The notes under the pieces were generated by a model. It saw only the letters and a list, made by a program, of their open reading frames with translations, was not told the origin of the DNA and did no database searches. DNA of 64,000 nucleotides. Source: Aphrocallistes beatrix (taxonomy: Eukaryota > Porifera > Hexactinellida > Sceptrulophora > Aphrocallistidae). Below, one piece after another: positions 11,227-62,940 of this stretch (position 1 is the stretch's first letter; each line of letters starts with the position of its first letter). The stretch covers positions 3,100,001 to 3,164,000 of the forward strand of contig OY725503.1 of assembly GCA_963281255.1 (NCBI GenBank), in the 5' to 3' direction. Made by a program: the position numbers and the translations under genes.

Positions 11227-11787
11227 TCCTTACTATTAAAACTCGATTATTGTTTGTTTATATATACACGTATATATATATATATATATATATATAACGA
11301 ATTGATTGAAGAAACTGCCGGGCGCAGAAGGCTGATTTTTGGCATGTGGGAGTCTTTTGGCTATGGCTCCAGTAAGTTCTGAGTTCAGAACAAATTGTCG
11401 ACTCATCATGGAATTATGACGTCATTGTCACATTTTTAAAAGTTAAGCAACACAGTTATTCGGGCATAACTCAGCCATTATAGGAGATAGAAGGCTGAAA
11501 TTTTAATAGAATCTGTATACTAACATATCTAACATATAGTGCAACTATCATCAAAAGATGATGACTCATCACTTTGTTATGACGTCATCATTACTCATCA
11601 AAAATTTTCAAAATTGACAAATTTGGTGATTTTTCGTGCGATATAGATTATAACAGTAGGATAGACATATTTAGAGATGTTATCTCCTCTATAATTAACC
11701 AATGTGACCCCAGGCGACCGAAGGGAGCCTCCGGCGGACACAAAGTGTCCGCCAGCCCCGCAGCGCAAGCAAGCGAAGCGCGCTTGT
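11227..11787 (+). mobile_element. Leader plus core repeat, full length
   Basis: A leader (TCCTTACTATTAAAACTCG) and a (TA)n microsatellite are followed by the core from about 11295 to GCGCTTGT at 11787. The core contains TGACGTCA twice (near 11408 and 11581), TGACTCA near 11564, and near the end the hairpin GGCGGACAC-AAA-GTGTCCGCC followed by a second GC-rich inverted repeat. There are no terminal inverted repeats. A TC start, a 3' hairpin and an A/T-type insertion point would fit a non-autonomous Helitron, but this is not proven. Confidence 0.8.
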
Positions 11788-11806
11788 ATATATATATATA
11801 TATATA

Positions 11807-15009: not shown

Positions 15010-16615
15010 TATATACACATATATTAATTAGAGGTAAGTTTAAGTATCTTCCTTTGAGTATCTTTGGGACAAGAGGTGGTAGAAGTAATATTCTTGGCCT
15101 TGTTGTTGAGTAAACAGTTACTTGAAGTCATTAAAATACAACGTAGCATATCTTTCCCTTCAATACAGCAATCAGTACACTCAAAAGCCCAATCCTCACA
15201 TTCTTCATCCTCAATTTTTAGAATAGCCAACTGAGCATCATCCAAATGCTCCAGGTGCGTATCGAAACTGGGCGAGTGGACACATGTGTCATCAACAAAT
15301 GCCTGTACATTCGGACACCCTCGTAGAGCCTGGTCTACCGCTCGCTGATAGCCTGTGAGTTTGACAATCCAAAAGGCATGCGGTTGAATTCAAACTGGCC
15401 GCGAATTGAAACAAACGCAGTGAACTCCCTATGCTTTTCCTTCACAGGCACGCTCCAGTATGCGGATGCCCCATCCAGTGTAGAGAATACAGTTGCCCCT
15501 CCCATACGATCGAAAACATCTCGGGGATCCGGCATCGGATAGGCATCTCGCTTCGTCACATCGTTGAGATCCCGGTAATCTACGGAAAATCGATGGGTCC
15601 CGTCCTTTTTCTTCACTAAGATCACTCGAGTCGCCCAAGAGGAAGAAGAGGGACGTATGATCCCATTCTCGAGCATTTCATCTATCTGCTTGGATACCTC
15701 CGCCTCAATTTCCGGAGAAACACGCAACGGCCGGCTTCTGATCGGCCGCTCATCCAGAAGAGTGATAACGTGTTCCGCGGTTCCAATTTCACGCGAGCTC
15801 TTCGGGTTCTCCGCGAAAACGTCTTTCCATCTCGACAGCACCTTGCGTATGGCTGTCTCTTCTCGCGGTGATAGTTTCGCGTTTATATCGAACCTGGCCT
15901 CCAAGCTATCTCCCTCCTTTCCCATCTCAGTCTGCATAATTTCTGCTCTAGTCGCCGCGTATCCCCCGCGTGCCGCAGCTAAAGAGATTTTCCAACAACC
16001 ACCTAGCCTAACTCTCATGTTTTCCCAATCGAAAGTAGTATTCTTGTAGCGCGCGAGGAACCTTCGCCCCAATATAACCACCCTATTGTTAGTATCGAGT
16101 ACTTCGATTTCGTGTTCTAGTGGTCGACCATCCCCCACATCTATCGCCACGCAGGCCGTACCCAGACCGCAAGCGCTGTCCGCCCTAGCCCATACACTTG
16201 ACTGTACTTTGTGCTGTAAGGGATATTCATCTTTTGTACAGTGCCTCTGTCCACCACCGAATGATCTGCCCCCGTGTCCATCATTACATTGATGGGTTTG
16301 CCGTTCCATTTAACTGGTACCACAACCGCCGTCTCATGTACAACACTATGCTGCGTCGTGGCCTGAAATACCCCTCTTTGACTTCGTGTATGTGGGCAAT
16401 AGCGAACCTCGTGTCCTCTTTCGCCACATTTCGCACAGTGCCGTTCCGGGCATTGGGCCATAAAGTGCCTGTCCGAGTCGCAAATAAAGCACCGACCCTT
16501 CTTAGGTAATTGGCTTGCCGGATACTTACTTGTAGGTCCATCCCGCCTCCCCATTGCCCCTTTGCTGCGTGGCGCATCCTTATATGTATAGAAACAGTTG
16601 AGAGCTAACATTCAA
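15010..16615 (-). mobile_element. Gypsy-type LTR-element fossil (gag-pol fragment)
   Basis: In order on the minus strand: a gag end with two CCHC zinc knuckles (near 16420-16510), an aspartic protease with the DTGA active site (near 16280), and the N-terminal half of a reverse transcriptase (near 15360-15680), followed by more degraded pol-like sequence to about 15030. No RNase H, integrase or LTR pair is seen. It is a broken, partial copy with a few disruptions, and looks moderately old. Its GC content is clearly higher than its surroundings. Confidence 0.85.
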
Positions 16616-39970: not shown

Positions 39971-40521
39971 TCCTTACTATTAAAACTCGATTAATATTTA
40001 TTTATCCTTACTATTAAAACTCGATTATTGTATATTTATATATATACAAGCGTGCTTCGCTTGCATGCGCTGCGCGGCTTGCGGACACTTTCTCTTCGGT
40101 CGCCTGAGGTCACATTGGTTAATTATAAGGGAGATAGCATCTCTAAATATCTGTCCTACTGTGCTAATCGACATCACTCGAAAAATCACCAAATTAGTCA
40201 ATTTTAAAATTTTTGATGTGTAATGATGACGTCATAACAAAGTGATGAGTCATCATTTTTTGATGAAAGTCGCATCATATGTGAGGTATGTTAGTATACA
40301 TATTCCATTAAAATTTCAGCCTTCTATCTCCTATAATAGCTGAGTTATGCCCGAATAACTGTGTTGCTTAACTTTTAAAAATGTGACAATGACGTCATAA
40401 TTCCATGATGTGTCAACATTTTGGTCTGAGCTCAGAACTTACTGGAGCCATAGCCGAAAGACTCCCACATGCCAAAAATTAGCTTTCTGGGCAAACCAGT
40501 TTCTTCAATCAATTCGTTACA
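39971..40521 (-). mobile_element. Two leaders (+) and an inverted core repeat
   Basis: Leaders at 39971 and 40005 on the plus strand precede an inverted core at 40046-40521. The core keeps both TGACGTCA sites (near 40228 and 40391). The hairpin end is shortened (GCGGACACTTTCTCTTCGG). Confidence 0.8.
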
Positions 40522-40543
40522 GATATATATATATATAAATAAA

Positions 40544-41229: not shown

Positions 41230-41721
41230 GTAACGAATTGATTGAAGAAACTGCCGGTCATAGAAAGCTAATTTTTTGCATGTGGGAGTCTTTTGGCTAT
41301 GGCTCCAGTAAGTTCTGAGCCTAGGGCAAAATGTCGACTCATCATGGAATTATGACGCCATTGTCACATTTTTAAAAGTTAAGCAATACAGTTATTCGAG
41401 CATAACCCAACCATTATAGGAGATAGAAGGCTGAATTTTTAATAGAATGTGTATACTAACATGCCTCACATATGATGCAAATATCATCAAAAAATGATAC
41501 TCATCACTGTGTTATGACGTCATCATTATGCATCAAAAATTTTAAAATTGACAAATTTGGTGATTTTTCGAGTGAAATCGATTTTAACATTAAGATGGAT
41601 TTATTTAGAGATGATATCTCCTTTATAATTAACCAATGTGACCCCAGGCGACCGAATGGAGCCTCAGGCGGACACAAAGTGTCCGCCAGCCGCGCTGCGC
41701 AAGCAAGCGAAGCGCGCTTGT
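41230..41721 (+). mobile_element. Core repeat, near full length
   Basis: From GTAACGAATTGATTG (41230) to GCGCTTGT (41721). The 3' hairpin GGCGGACACAAAGTGTCCGCC region is perfect. The second TGACGTCA (41517) is intact; the first is TGACGCCA. A mariner element sits in the following (TA)n tract. Confidence 0.8.
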
Positions 41722-41723
41722 AC

Positions 41724-41755
<32 letters not shown>

Positions 41756-45190: not shown

Positions 45191-47269
45191 TCCACTGGGT
45201 CGGATATTTTTTAGTGGAACATGGGCCACATGAGTTATGAGTCTGCAAAAGTGAACCGTAGTCCATTCTGCTGTGAGGGATATTTCCAAAAATAAAAATA
45301 AAATCTCTTACTTTAGCTTTGTTCTCCTATTTAATAGCCTGAGTTAAATTCCCAAAATGGTGAAATTTGGATTTACTACATGTATGCATTTCGAAACCTA
45401 CGTATGTGATTTTCTAATTAACAAATATGCACAAACCCACCTGGAAATTAATTATCTTCGCATTCTCACAATTGGCTAGCCATGTTTAAGCTATTGTTTT
45501 ACACAAAATTTGGTTGCTTGAGGTGTACAGCTAGTGGCTATTTTGTTTCTGATGTAAATCCATTAAAATCCATTTAAAATTTCGTAGTAGGATGGAAGAA
45601 TGAATAATTTGTATATACACATATAGATTAAATTAATTCAATGCATTCTATACACTAAGGCAGCGGTTTTCAATCTAGAGGTAAGTAATTAGCTATAATA
45701 TATCTTAGGAAGGACATGGCCTACTTAATACACGGCCGTGTATGTCACCGAGAAGGCCTGACTAATAGAAGGTCAGTTTTAACACTTTTCAAAGTGTAAT
45801 TAGACCGATAAATCAAAAACTGTATACGATAGACCTTGGGAAAGTATTATTACCATATTCAAACATCATAGCAAGGTATGCAATTCAGCTGTCAAAAGTT
45901 GATATATCATCATGTGATTGCGGAATAGGCTCTTTCAGAGCGAAAATTCTAACGTTCTAGCTCATTTTAAACATCGTTATCTGCATTTCTAATGCTTTTT
46001 ATTGGACTACAATTAATCAAAAAAATCTGAAAATATTAATTGGAATGTCTATGCATTCTTCAGTTGGCATGGAAACTTAAAATTCAATGTTTAAGCGTTA
46101 ACTCAAAAGTATAGATCGTAGACACTAAGAAATCATATGATTCAAACCACAAGTTAGCACTTAATACATGTTAATAATACTGTTTACGTGTTTATTTTCA
46201 ATATTCTCTGAGCTATCTAGGATTTTATAACGATCTATAGACAAGTAATAAGATGTGACAAAATCCTAGATAACTGAAAGAATACTGGATATAAAAAAGT
46301 TAACAGTATTATTATCATATAAGAAGCACTAGCTTTTTCTTTCCTAGTGTCGACGATCTACCTTTTGAGTTATGGCTTAAACATTCAATTTATTGTTCCG
46401 TTGGTACATATATTGCCTCACAGTAACTTGTGGATTTTGGGCTAGGGCTGCGGTAAAAGATGGTTTCTAATACATAAGAAGCCTTAAATCATTAACCACG
46501 TACAAAAGAGCTTAGAAATGTATTACCAGCATATATAAATATGGTCAAATTATCCATATCCGTTGTTAAAATTTAGATTAGTCATCATATGATTGCGCAA
46601 CAGGGTAAATTTATAACAAATTTAGTGATTTTAGAGGCCTTTTAGGGACACTTCTAAGTGTTTTAAATATAATGTTTTCGTATAAAACTGAGCTGTGAAT
46701 GAGTTGATGCGAAAAATTTGGAATTTTTTAATGGAATGTTGCTAATAACTTTATGAATTTGGTTCCGATTTGAAATCTTAACATACCAACGTGTAGAGGA
46801 GGTCTGGGCGTTTGTGTTGTTAAATTTTTCACTGGTTTGGCTCGAACACGAGTGTTTGTTATCTTAGCGGCGGATCCGAAAAGTATTCGTACTAAATCAA
46901 AGATAATTATACCCGTGGAAGGAAGAGAGTAATGATGTATTTCAATTTTAAGTTTAAATTTTTAAATTTTCACAAAATGAGTCAGTAGTGACAGATCAAA
47001 TTTAGGTCTCAGTTTTGGTTACTATCTCATGAAATATTTAGGATACAAACTTTTCCTTTAAACTATGTTTATTTCAGCTTGGTGTATTTTGTGTTTCAAA
47101 TTTCAAATTAAAATATTAATCTTTGAACGAATTATTAATATTTGAATTTTACATTATATGTAATAATGTGATATCACCGGAGTTGTATATATCAGTAATA
47201 TCTTCTTTTAATCACACCAGATCATATTTTGATTATTCGTGTCCAGCACTAAATTTCCAGCCATTTGAT

Positions 47270-47840
47270 ATATATGTCATGGGGGAACTTCAAATCTGGG
47301 GGAATTTGAAGTTCCTCCAGGGGAAATTCAAATTGGAGTTTCCCCTGGGGGAAATTTCAATTGGAGTTTCCCCAAGTGGAATTTTAAATTCCACTAGTGG
47401 GAACTCCAATTGGAATTTGCCCTGGGGGAATTTAAAATTCTAAAGACTAGATTTTGTCGTACAAAAAATTGGAGTTTCCCCTGGTGGAAATTTAAATTCC
47501 CCTAGTGGGAACTCCAATTTGAATTTGCCCTGGGGGAATTTAAAATTCTCAAATTGGAGTTTCCACTGGGGGGAATTTCAATTGGAGTTTCCCCTAGTGG
47601 AAATTTAAATTCCCCTAGTGGAAACTCCAATTTTTTGTACAACTAAATCTAGTCTTTAGAATTTTAAATTCCCCCAGGGCAAATTCAAATTGGAGTTCCT
47701 ACTAGGGGAATTTAAAATTCCACTAGGGGAAACTCCAATTGAAATTCCCCCCAGTGGAAACTCCAATTTGAATTCCCCCTGGGGGAACTTCTAATTCCCC
47801 CAGATTTGAAGTTCCCCCATGACATATATATTGACCATAT
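47270..47840. repeat. Modular C/G-run foldback, about 550 bp
   Basis: Nearly symmetric about 47550. It consists almost wholly of alternating modules AATTGGAGTTTCCCC, CTGGGGGAATTT and AAATTCCCCTAGTGG in both orientations. The ends are ATGTCATGGGGGAACTTC and GAAGTTCCCCCATGACAT. An ORF across it is an artefact of the repeats. Confidence 0.8.
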
Positions 47841-48558
47841 TTGGAGAAATTTTTAGTTGGCCGTTCCTCGCAACGGCCAGGATTGAAAAATTCCGATCTC
47901 TAAATTTTGGAGAAACCATATCGAGTGACCTCTTGTTCTTCTCGGCTAGGTTCAGCGAGTACGAATATGCTAATTAGAACGCTCTAATATATCATATGTG
48001 GAATACATGAAGGTTTTGTGGTATGCCATAGTGGCAGGTATAGTTGAATGTGGTAAAATGACTGGAAATTTAGTGCTGGACACGAACTAAACAATCAAAA
48101 TATGATCTGGTGTGATTAAGTGAAGATATTAACTCCGGTGATATCACATTATTACATATAATGTAAAATTCAAATATTGATAATTCGTTCAAAGATTAAT
48201 ATTTTAATTTGAAATTTGAAACAGAAAATACACCAAGGCTGAAATAAACATATTTTAAAGGAAAAGTTTGTATCCTAAATATTTCATGAGATAACAACCA
48301 AAAACTGAGACCTAAATTTGATCTGTCACTACTAACTCATTTTGCGAAAATTTAAAAATTTAAACTTAAAAATGAAATACATCATAACTCTCTTCCTTCC
48401 ATGGGTATAATTATCTTTGATTTAGGACGAATACTTTTCGAGTTATAAGCGATTAAGTGTGACTTCGAATCCGCCGCTAAGATAACAAACACTCGTGTTC
48501 GAGCCAAACCAGTGAAAAATTGAACCGACCACAATTTCACCAAATTTTAACTTATTAG

Positions 48559-48880
48559 TAGGGGTGTACCGGATATGAACCACTATCCGGCCGGATAGTG
48601 GTTCCAATTGTGATTGTGTATGAATTAAACATTAACTACAAAAAGGATAGAAACAGAAGCAATTTATTCAATTAACTACAATTTAATTCTAAAGCTATTA
48701 TCAATCCATAAATCTAATCTAATCTATAACCTATTCCAATCTACTATATTAAAACTCTAAATGCTAGCTAATAATTGTATTTCAGTAAGGAAATATTCTT
48801 TTGTATGAATATTAATCTCTCACCATTTTCTGGTAGTAGCCTACGCCGGAGTAGAAAATCTCTAAACCGGTACACCTCTA
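48559..48880. mobile_element. hAT-type MITE with 8-bp TSD
   Basis: Its ends are TAGGGGTGTACCGG and CCGGTACACCTCTA. CTTATTAG is duplicated at 48551-48558 and 48881-48888. The sister arm near 46810 lacks the insertion. Non-coding. Confidence 0.9.
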
Positions 48881-50178
48881 CTTATTAGCTTCAAAATTTA
48901 ACAACACAAACGTCCAGACCTCCTCTACACGTTGGTATGATTAGATTTCAAATCGGATCCAAATTCATAAAGTTATTAGCATTTAAGTGCGATACGGCGA
49001 ATCCGCTGCTAAAGTAACACCCATGTAGCTCTTGCGGTTTATAAAGATATGACCCCAACTGACTCCATAGCAACACTGGAATGTAGCAACATTCCATGAA
49101 AAACATTTATAAGTGCCTTAAACGGCCTCTGAATATCACTAAATTTTCACAATTATAACCTGTTGTGCAATCATATGATGACTATCTAAATTCTAACAAC
49201 GGACATGGATACTTTGACACCATATTTATATATGCTATTAATACATTCCAAAGCCTATTGTGCCCTGTTAATGATTTAAGGCATCTCATGTATTCGTTCA
49301 ATCATCTTCTACCGCATCCCTAGTTCAAAATCTGCAAGTTTCTGTGAGACCTTATATGTAGTTGGCTATGTATTTTCAAATCTTTTGGATTTAGGCCATC
49401 CTATTGTTGTCCAATTAAAAAAATCAAGCATTAGAAATGCAGTTAACGATGTTTAAAATGAACTAGAACAGCAGCATTTTTCGCTCTAAAAAGAGCCCAT
49501 TGCGGAATCACATGATGACATCACCTTTTTGACTGCTGAATTGCATACCTTGCTATGATGTTTGTATATTGTAATAATACATTTCCAAGGACTATCGTAT
49601 ACAGTTTTTGATTTATTGGTCTAATTACACTTGAAATGTGTTAAAACTGCCCTTCTACTTTTCAGGCCTTCTCGGTGACAGACACGACCGTGTAACTGGT
49701 GGTCCAAAAAAAAGGAAACCAATTTTTAAATTCCTATAGCCCAGCTATTTTTTGTCCAACTCAATGAAACTCTGTAATTATAAACTTCTAACAATCTACT
49801 AAAAGTATTCAAAGCATAATCATTCTAATGTAAGGAGATAAGTGGTGATTTATAAGATGTACTCCATATGCTCTCCGTTCACCTCGATACATTTTTTGAT
49901 CCTGAGAGTGAAGTTCTGCATGACAGCTTTCAAAACAGGCCCCTTAATTGCATTTATCTCGTCTTTGATCTTATCTTTCAGCTGGTTTAGGTCTCTCGGC
50001 TTCTCTTCATATACTTCGTTCTTGAGATAACCCCACAGATAGTAATCTGGGGGACTAACGTCTGGAGAATGGGGTGGCCACTCAATTTGACATCGTTTGC
50101 TAACAATTCTCTTCTTGAAGTGCTGCTTCTGCCATTCAATGCTGATATTGGCAGAATGGGGCGTTGCACCATCCTACT

Positions 50179-50566
50179 CAGGCTTTCATCCAGTCGTACT
50201 GGGCGCGCCTAGAGGCGCGTATTTGATCCTATGGATCATAATTAGGCGTATGATTTTTGGGGCTAGGCGCGTGGCATTACATACAGTCGACTCCGCTTAA
50301 TAGGGCCACATCGGTCAGAGGACATTTTGCCCCGATTAAGCGGAGAATCCTATTAACCGAAAATATTTTGTATTAGCTTCTATGTGTGAGAGCTATTCCG
50401 GTCCTGCCAAAAGTGGCCCGATTAAGCGGCTGACCCGATTAAATAGTGGCCCTATTAAGCGGAGTCGACTGTATATAAAAATGCTATATAAAAATGAGTC
50501 TAGGCGCGTAGAAAAATGGTGACGTCCATTTAGGCGTATGACTTTGGAAAGCTGGATGAAACCCTG
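50179..50566. mobile_element. hAT-type MITE nested in mariner
   Basis: Its ends are CAGGCTTTCATCCAG and CTGGATGAAACCCTG. The flanks ATCCTACT and GTCCTACT agree in 7 of 8 bases. The interior has GGCGCG words and a pogo-A insertion. Non-coding. Confidence 0.75.
50284..50471. mobile_element. pogo-A MITE, innermost of the nest
   Basis: Complete CAGTCGACTCCG / CGGAGTCGACTG pair with TA on both sides, inside the hAT MITE. It is 188 bp, the same length as the copies at 1791 and 41035. Confidence 0.9.
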
Positions 50567-50917
50567 GTCCTACTGCAACCATTGTCTGCTGGAAGCACTG
50601 ACTTCTTATTTAAGTTTTTATCAATGCCTGCATTTTGAAACTTCTTCATCATCTTGAATATGGCTTGGTTGGAGGTAGTTCCGTCCCAAAACATGTAAAA
50701 AGTTATGTTGCATTTTCGCAAACGACTTTGTCTCTAAATATTTCTGAACACACCATACTCGCTCTCGAGTTGTCCACTGCCTTGTTTTTGGCATATCAAA
50801 GGTATTGACTAACATATCTTAAAATGTAATTGCGTTATAATTAAAACTGTGACCAAAATGGTCCAAAACAGAAATGGGTTTCCATTTTTTTGAACCACCC
50901 TGTATTAAGTAGGCCAT

Positions 50918-51362
50918 AGGTAGGGCTATAGCGTGGGGATAATTGGGTATATATTCCTAATGTCGGGGAATGGCGTGGGAAAAGGTGCAGCGCCATGTAG
51001 GAATTCCAACTTGTCGCAAAAAAGTTGGAATAATGTCATGAAATATTCTTAATTAGCCCTGTGCCAAGTAAGAATTCCTACTAGGCTCAACAAAATTGGA
51101 ACAATACGTATCACATTCTGAAATATTCCTACTTAGCGCTGCGCAAAGTAAGAATTACACATTAACAAGTATTTATCAGCAATTTATTTAGTGATTACTA
51201 TGAGTATCGGTGTTGTATACATCGATTACCGTACGGGAGTGTATTTATTATAAAGTTCTTCATATAGAGCTTTGAATGAGTTGATGCGAAAAATTTGATT
51301 TTTCATGGAATGTTGCAACATTCCAGCGTTATTATGGATACGCATTAATAATAATAAAAATA
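50918..51362. other. No gene recognised
   Basis: AT-rich. The word AAGTAGGAATTC-like recurs loosely around 50990-51140 (short inverted words around AAAAAGTTGGAATAAT), and an F1-like scrap lies at 51270-51330. Confidence 0.4.
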
Positions 51363-51842
51363 ACAAGCGCGCTTCGCTTGCTTGCGCTGCGCGGCTGGCG
51401 GACACTTTGTGTCCCCGGAGGCACCGAAGCTAACATTGGTTAATTATGGTAGATAACATTTCTAAGTACATTTGTCTTATTGTTATAATCAATATTACTT
51501 GGAAAATCACCGAATTTGTCAATTTTAATTTTTTTTACAAATTTGTAATGATGACATCATAACAGAGTGATGAGTCATCATTTTTAATGAGAGTTGTATC
51601 ATCTTTGTGATATATTAATATACACATTCTATTAAAGTTTCAGCCTTCTATCACCTCAAATGGCTGAGTTATGGTCAAAAACTGAAATTTCTAATTATAA
51701 AAAAGGTGTCAATGACGTCATAATTTCATTATGAGTCGACATTTTCGTCTGAGGTCAGAACTTAGTGGAGTCATAGCCAAAAGACTTCCACATGCCAAAA
51801 ATCAGCTTTCTGTGCCTGGCAGTTTCTCAATCAATTCGTTAT
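51363..51842 (-). mobile_element. Inverted core repeat, full length
   Basis: It starts ACAAGCGCGCTTCGC with the hairpin GGCGGACACTTTGTGTCC and ends at the complement of the core start (51842). The distal site is altered to TGACATCA; one TGACGTCA is at about 51714. No leader is adjacent. Confidence 0.8.
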
Positions 51843-51857
51843 AGAGAAATATATATA

Positions 51858-62740: not shown

Positions 62741-62940
62741 NNNNNNNNNNNNNNNNNNNNNNNNNNNNNNNNNNNNNNNNNNNNNNNNNNNNNNNNNNNN
62801 NNNNNNNNNNNNNNNNNNNNNNNNNNNNNNNNNNNNNNNNNNNNNNNNNNNNNNNNNNNNNNNNNNNNNNNNNNNNNNNNNNNNNNNNNNNNNNNNNNNN
62901 NNNNNNNNNNNNNNNNNNNNNNNNNNNNNNNNNNNNNNNN
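62741..62940. other. Assembly gap (200 N)
   Basis: A run of exactly 200 N. Frames called across it are meaningless. The true length is unknown. Confidence 0.99.

Follow-up and report, generated by a model that had tools for sequence, protein, structure and literature searches.

In the excerpts of the papers cited here, the foldback element Galileo of Drosophila, which appears to be the closest known kind to the two palindromic elements described below, encodes a P transposase, adopts a foldback form, occurs as two-arm copies and generates 7-bp duplications; these papers cover drosophilids (PMC4168063, PMC3573991, PMC10990002). Long Galileo arms hold several THAP sites (PMC3688188). The P-type miniature inverted-repeat transposable elements (MITEs) of Anopheles gambiae are flanked by 8-bp duplications, and related P elements have 27–31-bp repeats (PMC1562414). 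The Tm1 Mutator/Foldback elements of root-knot nematodes have foldback-like arms and 9-bp duplications (PMC3169594). TinT, interruption analysis and REANNOTATE read the insertion order of such elements from which one interrupts which (PMC3014933, PMC2517846, PMC2672092). The present analysis concerns a nest of transposons in the sponge Aphrocallistes beatrix, lying in a window of 64,000 nucleotides (the whole stretch analysed; contig OY725503.1, C17:3100001-3164000) of a searched genome whose 28 contigs total 100.5 Mb. Transposon nesting is ordinary; what this case contributes is that its outer layers, here called T and F1, are identified as foldback P elements.

A nest of eight transposable elements

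Positions 45,715–50,918 of the window are a real nest of eight transposable elements in readable insertion order (Table 1). As the initial annotation had proposed, T is a palindrome with two insertions in its right arm, F1 and a mariner-type element. Once these insertions are removed, its arms align as expected, with identity at 410 of 465 columns (88.2%; 418/481 with other gap costs and ends) and a global alignment score of 515. The neighbouring, uninterrupted stretch scores 37.5 in comparison, and 200 stretches drawn at random from the window, among which some may include T arm sequence, average -114 and peak at 159. F1 holds an inner palindrome, whose limits have shifted from the 46735–49020 first proposed and which contains a C/G-run foldback and a hAT-type MITE (hAT MITE 1). 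The mariner holds another (hAT MITE 2), itself interrupted by a pogo-like MITE.

Table 1. Elements of the nest and their parts (positions in the window)
Feature	Position	Strand	Remarks
T element, whole	45715–50918		palindromic, read as P superfamily
Putative T target duplication	45708–45714 and 50919–50925		GGAAGGA vs GGTAGGG, 5/7 alike
T left arm	45715–46243	+	whole; CATGGCCTACTTAATACACGG end; arm alignment
T right arm, piece 1	46248–~46399	-	up to F1 insertion; edge approximate
F1 remnant, whole	~46405–49370		palindromic, read as P superfamily
F1 left arm	46405–46744	+	terminal ~10 bp lost; 84–87% vs the 39 remaining F1 copies that were scored
Inner palindrome (Mutator-like candidate)	46741–49024		left ~45 bp absent; right end ACACCCAT; arms 96.1% alike
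C/G-run foldback	47268–47831		separate insertion at (AT)n run; repeated inverted modules
hAT-type MITE 1	48559–48880	+	8-bp duplication CTTATTAG at 48551–48558 and 48881–48888 (8/8)
F1 right arm	49025–49370	-	terminus GTTGGCTATG present
T right arm, piece 2	49371–49694	-	between F1 and mariner insertions; bases 49693–49694 are the TA duplication
Mariner-type element, internally deleted	49695–50902	-	TA at 49693–49694 and 50903–50904
hAT-type MITE 2, within mariner	50179–50566	+	ATCCTACT (50171–50178) and GTCCTACT (50567–50574), 7/8
Pogo-like MITE, within hAT MITE 2	50284–50471	+	TA at 50282–50283 and 50472–50473
T right arm, terminal piece	50905–50918	-	TTAAGTAGGCCATA; matches left end 45715–45728

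T and F1 as palindromic P-superfamily elements

T and F1 are read from their sequence as palindromic non-autonomous elements of the P superfamily with hundreds of copies in the genome. The commonest 21-base end of T type is found in 119 exact copies (51+68) and exact F1-type ends in 353 (177+176), each reversed-pattern control giving 0. Elsewhere, T copies (~1.09 kb; 1019–1465 bp in the ten copies for which both ends were found) are made of ~540-bp arms around a ~10-bp centre, and other F1 copies are palindromes of ~1.08 kb ending in CATAGCCTACTGTATATAAGG, which also occur free-standing between 7-bp duplications. In both families the copies consist of arms around a short or ~230-bp centre, with no transposase of their own, and are therefore read as non-autonomous derivatives.

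Both families terminate in CATRGCCTAC, whose CATRG tip fits what we take to be the P-type tip, CANRG. Exact 7-bp duplications flank 20 of 27 T and F1 element rows, and 23 of 27 agree at 6/7 or better, exact 8-bp duplications being found in 0/27; with shuffled pairing, 6/7 or better is reached by 1.1 rows on average and by 6 at most. Two of these 27 rows combine ends that are not partners; they lie in the near-identical F1 neighbourhoods L042 (C3:3148321) and L043 (C3:3139547), which are 8.8 kb apart and probably constitute a segmental duplication. No single target motif is visible by eye among the duplications.

The T and F1 ends are common to P-transposase elements of 3.6–4.1 kb. The P-transposase domain PF21787 has at least 131 matches in the genome (150 of 177 candidates scored). 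Among three such loci that were cut out, L092 carries an F1-type end, L094 carries a 281-bp T-type end and, ~100 bp further in, a THAP frame, and L093 has neither type of end in its cut-out stretch. The element around L092 (C6:2264022-2267663, 3642 bp) has F1-type ends (87.5% over 64 bp), is flanked by AATTAGC left and right, shows 96.5% identity between its inverted ends over 200 bp, and encodes THAP (E 2e-13) and TNP-like RNase H (E 1.9e-16) domains. Exact T-type ends enclose a PF21787 match in two further elements, one of 4067 bp with TCTCGAG on both sides (C12:3175007-3179073) and one of 3581 bp (C4:2156210-2159790). For another element, at C4:3080736, the left end was not found within 3075000–3080736. 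The ends shared with transposase-bearing elements, combined with the 7-bp duplications, would therefore place T and F1 in the P superfamily.

It is unlikely that T and F1 belong to some other superfamily with 7-bp duplications and owe their P-like tips to nesting or chance. Such a view could draw on the shortness of the shared stretches, as the T-type P elements at C4:2156210 and on C12 have only 45–65 bp in common with T and the C6 element just 64 bp with F1, as well as on the C4:3080736 element, which shares 282 columns with T at one end only, and on the one cut-out locus in three whose stretch is devoid of such an end. However, exact 21-base ends flank transposase matches at two places, and the C6 and C12 elements carry 7-bp duplications, which argues for the P superfamily.

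Junctions and insertion order

Four of the insertions are readable at both junctions. hAT MITE 1 interrupts the inner palindrome between exact copies of an 8-bp duplication (CTTATTAG/CTTATTAG), and its site is uninterrupted in two of three inner-palindrome relatives. The mariner, whose left limit had been put at 49696, lies between two TA dinucleotides, a single TA being present at the corresponding uninterrupted site of the T left arm. The site of hAT MITE 2, duplicated at 7/8 positions in the mariner, is uninterrupted in 6/7 mariner siblings (3–4 mismatches). The pogo-like MITE has TA on both sides, as do 6/6 fetched relatives (by eye), and its site is uninterrupted in 2/4 relatives of hAT MITE 2. 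Because each younger element interrupts its host, two successions are supported, T then F1 then inner palindrome then hAT MITE 1, and T then mariner then hAT MITE 2 then pogo-like MITE; both had been put forward in the initial annotation, and the uninterrupted sites in relatives agree with them.

The region is repeat-dense and palindromes are difficult to assemble, so that an assembly artefact fusing separate repeats has to be considered. It is nevertheless very improbable, as the four insertions have exact or 7/8 duplications, three of them have a single-copy site in relatives and the mariner has its own in the T left arm, and the stack is free of Ns (the sole N run of the window is at 62741–62940). 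A search with the 530 bp directly left of T gave one match, itself. It is hardly credible that the T and F1 arms were one larger palindrome from the outset, with F1 as the centre of T and never an independent insertion: although the two families are related (~58–69% over T 95–234 or longer; 70.5% over 122 columns) and the halves of F1 are inverted relative to each other, T elsewhere has its short centre without F1, F1 occurs alone with its duplications, and the own centre of T in the window (~46243–46250) sits left of F1, for which reason F1 was rejected as that centre.

The divergence of each layer was counted as differences from the majority consensus of its fetched relatives, with sites taken as independent in one-sided Fisher tests. 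The expectation that divergence falls inward is borne out at the main steps. F1 (68/600, 11.3%) is more divergent than the inner palindrome (37/751, 4.9%; p 1e-5), itself more divergent than hAT MITE 1 (4/277, 1.4%; p 0.006). T (112/1009, 11.1%) likewise exceeds the mariner (44/774, 5.7%; p 3e-5), and the mariner exceeds the pogo-like MITE (3/188, 1.6%; p 0.01), but the intermediate steps, from mariner to hAT MITE 2 (7/194, 3.6%; p 0.16) and from hAT MITE 2 to pogo-like MITE (p 0.18), are each not significant alone. The T value was obtained with 9 arm copies (7 loci) that resemble the window copy and that we selected for their CACGGCCGTG-type ends (the own-like subset); when all 36 arm copies are used instead, T differs at 161/1005 (16.0%). 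The other consensuses rest on 4 copies from 3 loci for the inner palindrome, 7 and 5 relatives for the mariner, 5 for hAT MITE 1, 4 for hAT MITE 2 and 7 for the pogo-like MITE.

Taken together, these data make it very probable that the stack is a DNA-transposon nest built by successive cut-and-paste insertions, T and F1 being P-type elements, and the following history can be proposed. T, a ~1.09-kb palindromic P-type element, would have arrived first. A related palindromic P-type element, F1, would then have inserted into its right arm, and a Mutator-like palindrome into the right arm of F1, this palindrome in turn receiving the C/G-run foldback and a hAT MITE. Separately, a mariner would have inserted ~14 bp from the right end of T, a second hAT MITE into the former transposase sequence of this mariner, and a pogo-like MITE into this second hAT MITE. 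F1 and the Mutator-like palindrome would each have lost the left end afterwards through small deletions. As for the enzymes involved, we infer that T and F1 were most likely mobilized by the THAP-domain P transposases of elements with the same ends.

Several observations weigh against parts of this history. The duplication of T itself is 5/7 at best, and the left junctions of F1 with T and of the inner palindrome with F1 are eroded, no duplication being readable at either. One relative of the inner palindrome, L069, also contains end-like repeats internally, because of which the ends of this family vary. The flanks of the C4:2156210-2159790 element do not match, as in chimeric Galileo copies. 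On the own-like subset, T and F1 are tied in divergence (11.1 vs 11.3%; T>F1 p 0.59), and the C/G-run foldback, at 11.7% from a poor consensus of 4 loci, is more divergent than its host layer and departs from the trend. The relatives are best-scoring matches, which biases divergence low in large families. Finally, the F1 arms (85.3%; 82.4–84.7%) are less alike than those of T (88.2%; 85.6%), and the dating of F1 after T therefore comes from the interruption alone. Arm-to-arm identity was rejected as a clock, as F1 is younger by interruption yet has the less similar arms; in other copies, it ranges from 87 to 99% for T (14 pairs) and from 90 to 97% for F1 (9 copies).

Inner and younger elements

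By eye, ~30–40 bp of the T right arm are absent at the F1 junction relative to the T consensus, and the right terminus of F1 (GGCTATG) is kept while its left ~10 bp are absent. The arms of the inner palindrome are identical at 490/510 positions. Its right end, also found at the outer edge of L069, directly abuts F1 sequence, and on the left the palindrome lacks ~45 bp that L069 and L070 have. GCTA is common to both sequences at its left junction with F1, which is therefore read, by eye, as a probable later deletion in which the middle of F1 was lost too. Among the three fetched relatives, L069 and L071 have 9-bp duplications (ATAGAAAAT and GAATACTTG, respectively, by eye), and for L070 the right family end was not seen in the fetched stretch. 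Two copies thus have duplications within the 8–11-bp range (mostly 9 bp) used as criterion, and the inner palindrome looks Mutator-like.

The inner palindrome had been described as centred on the C/G-run foldback. This proposal did not hold and was rejected, since the foldback is off-centre and 3/3 relatives (L069–L071) read through its site (by eye). A first look across the genome gave 63 candidate relatives, of which 40 were scored; no clear duplication was seen in five fetched copies and L065, the tips merging into (AT)n.

hAT MITE 1 is devoid of 68–97 bp found in five fetched siblings. Five of nine fetched hAT MITE relatives have both ends within the fetched stretch, with, by eye, an 8/8 duplication in L080, L083 and L084, a 7/8 duplication in L079 and none seen in L082. 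The hAT label of both MITEs is our assumption from presumed hAT tips and the 8-bp length of the duplications. In the 3.9 kb between the exact T-type ends at C14:2976127-2980013, the hAT MITE 1 family is matched at both of its ends; this may be a further nest, one that contains a longer hAT element.

The mariner is internally deleted, its two matched pieces being 207, 579 and 574 bases apart in its siblings L002, L003 and L004. A 107-residue piece matches nothing in Pfam at E<=0.01. DGATPHSAN and SPDVSPPDYYLWGYLK are taken to be mariner motifs. The tip of the innermost MITE, CAGTCGACTCC, is presumably of pogo type.

Neighbouring sequence

Just right of the stack, 51238–51346 is a fragment resembling an F1-type arm. 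It is followed by a member (51348–51857) of a ~505-bp repeat family with about a dozen other matches in the window (e.g. 11279–11805, 40032–40535, 41231–41744), in both orientations and on either side of the stack. Open frames on the minus strand at 15335–16611 resemble a gypsy-type retrotransposon (motifs by eye).

Comparison with known systems

As far as the excerpts go, TinT, interruption analysis and REANNOTATE treat many nests, and the locus described here is a single nest of eight elements, one more internally dated example of a well-known practice. The inner palindrome is like Tm1 in its foldback-like arms and 9-bp duplications, the latter known from two copies only, and its assignment comes from these duplications and not from a transposase. 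T and F1 resemble the P-MITEs of Anopheles gambiae in being non-autonomous, in their many copies and in having both ends as in P elements, but differ in being palindromes and in having 7-bp instead of 8-bp duplications.

Galileo and the elements described here have in common a THAP transposase of P type, long inverted repeats of foldback form, arm-only copies and 7-bp duplications. However, Galileo arms are internally repetitive, whereas inside the T and F1 arms of the window the self-comparison lists no direct repeat of at least 20 bp, and Galileo targets resemble GTANTAC, whereas the T and F1 duplications reveal no single motif by eye. The THAP sites of the Galileo arms may suggest how long arms could serve a transposase here. 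The literature found on foldback, palindromic or P elements in sponges or Ciona held nothing pertinent, which is not proof that Galileo-like elements are absent outside drosophilids. Tentatively, a foldback P lineage independent of, or far from, Galileo could have given rise to two large families of near-perfect ~1.1-kb palindromes; if so, full palindromy would be something that arises repeatedly in the P superfamily. In the same genome there are also P-type elements in which long transposase frames occur together with both ends and 7-bp duplications. The palindromic P relatives of this sponge are mildly interesting, and the presence in one genome of T, F1 and transposase-bearing elements with the same ends allows testing how P transposons become palindromes.

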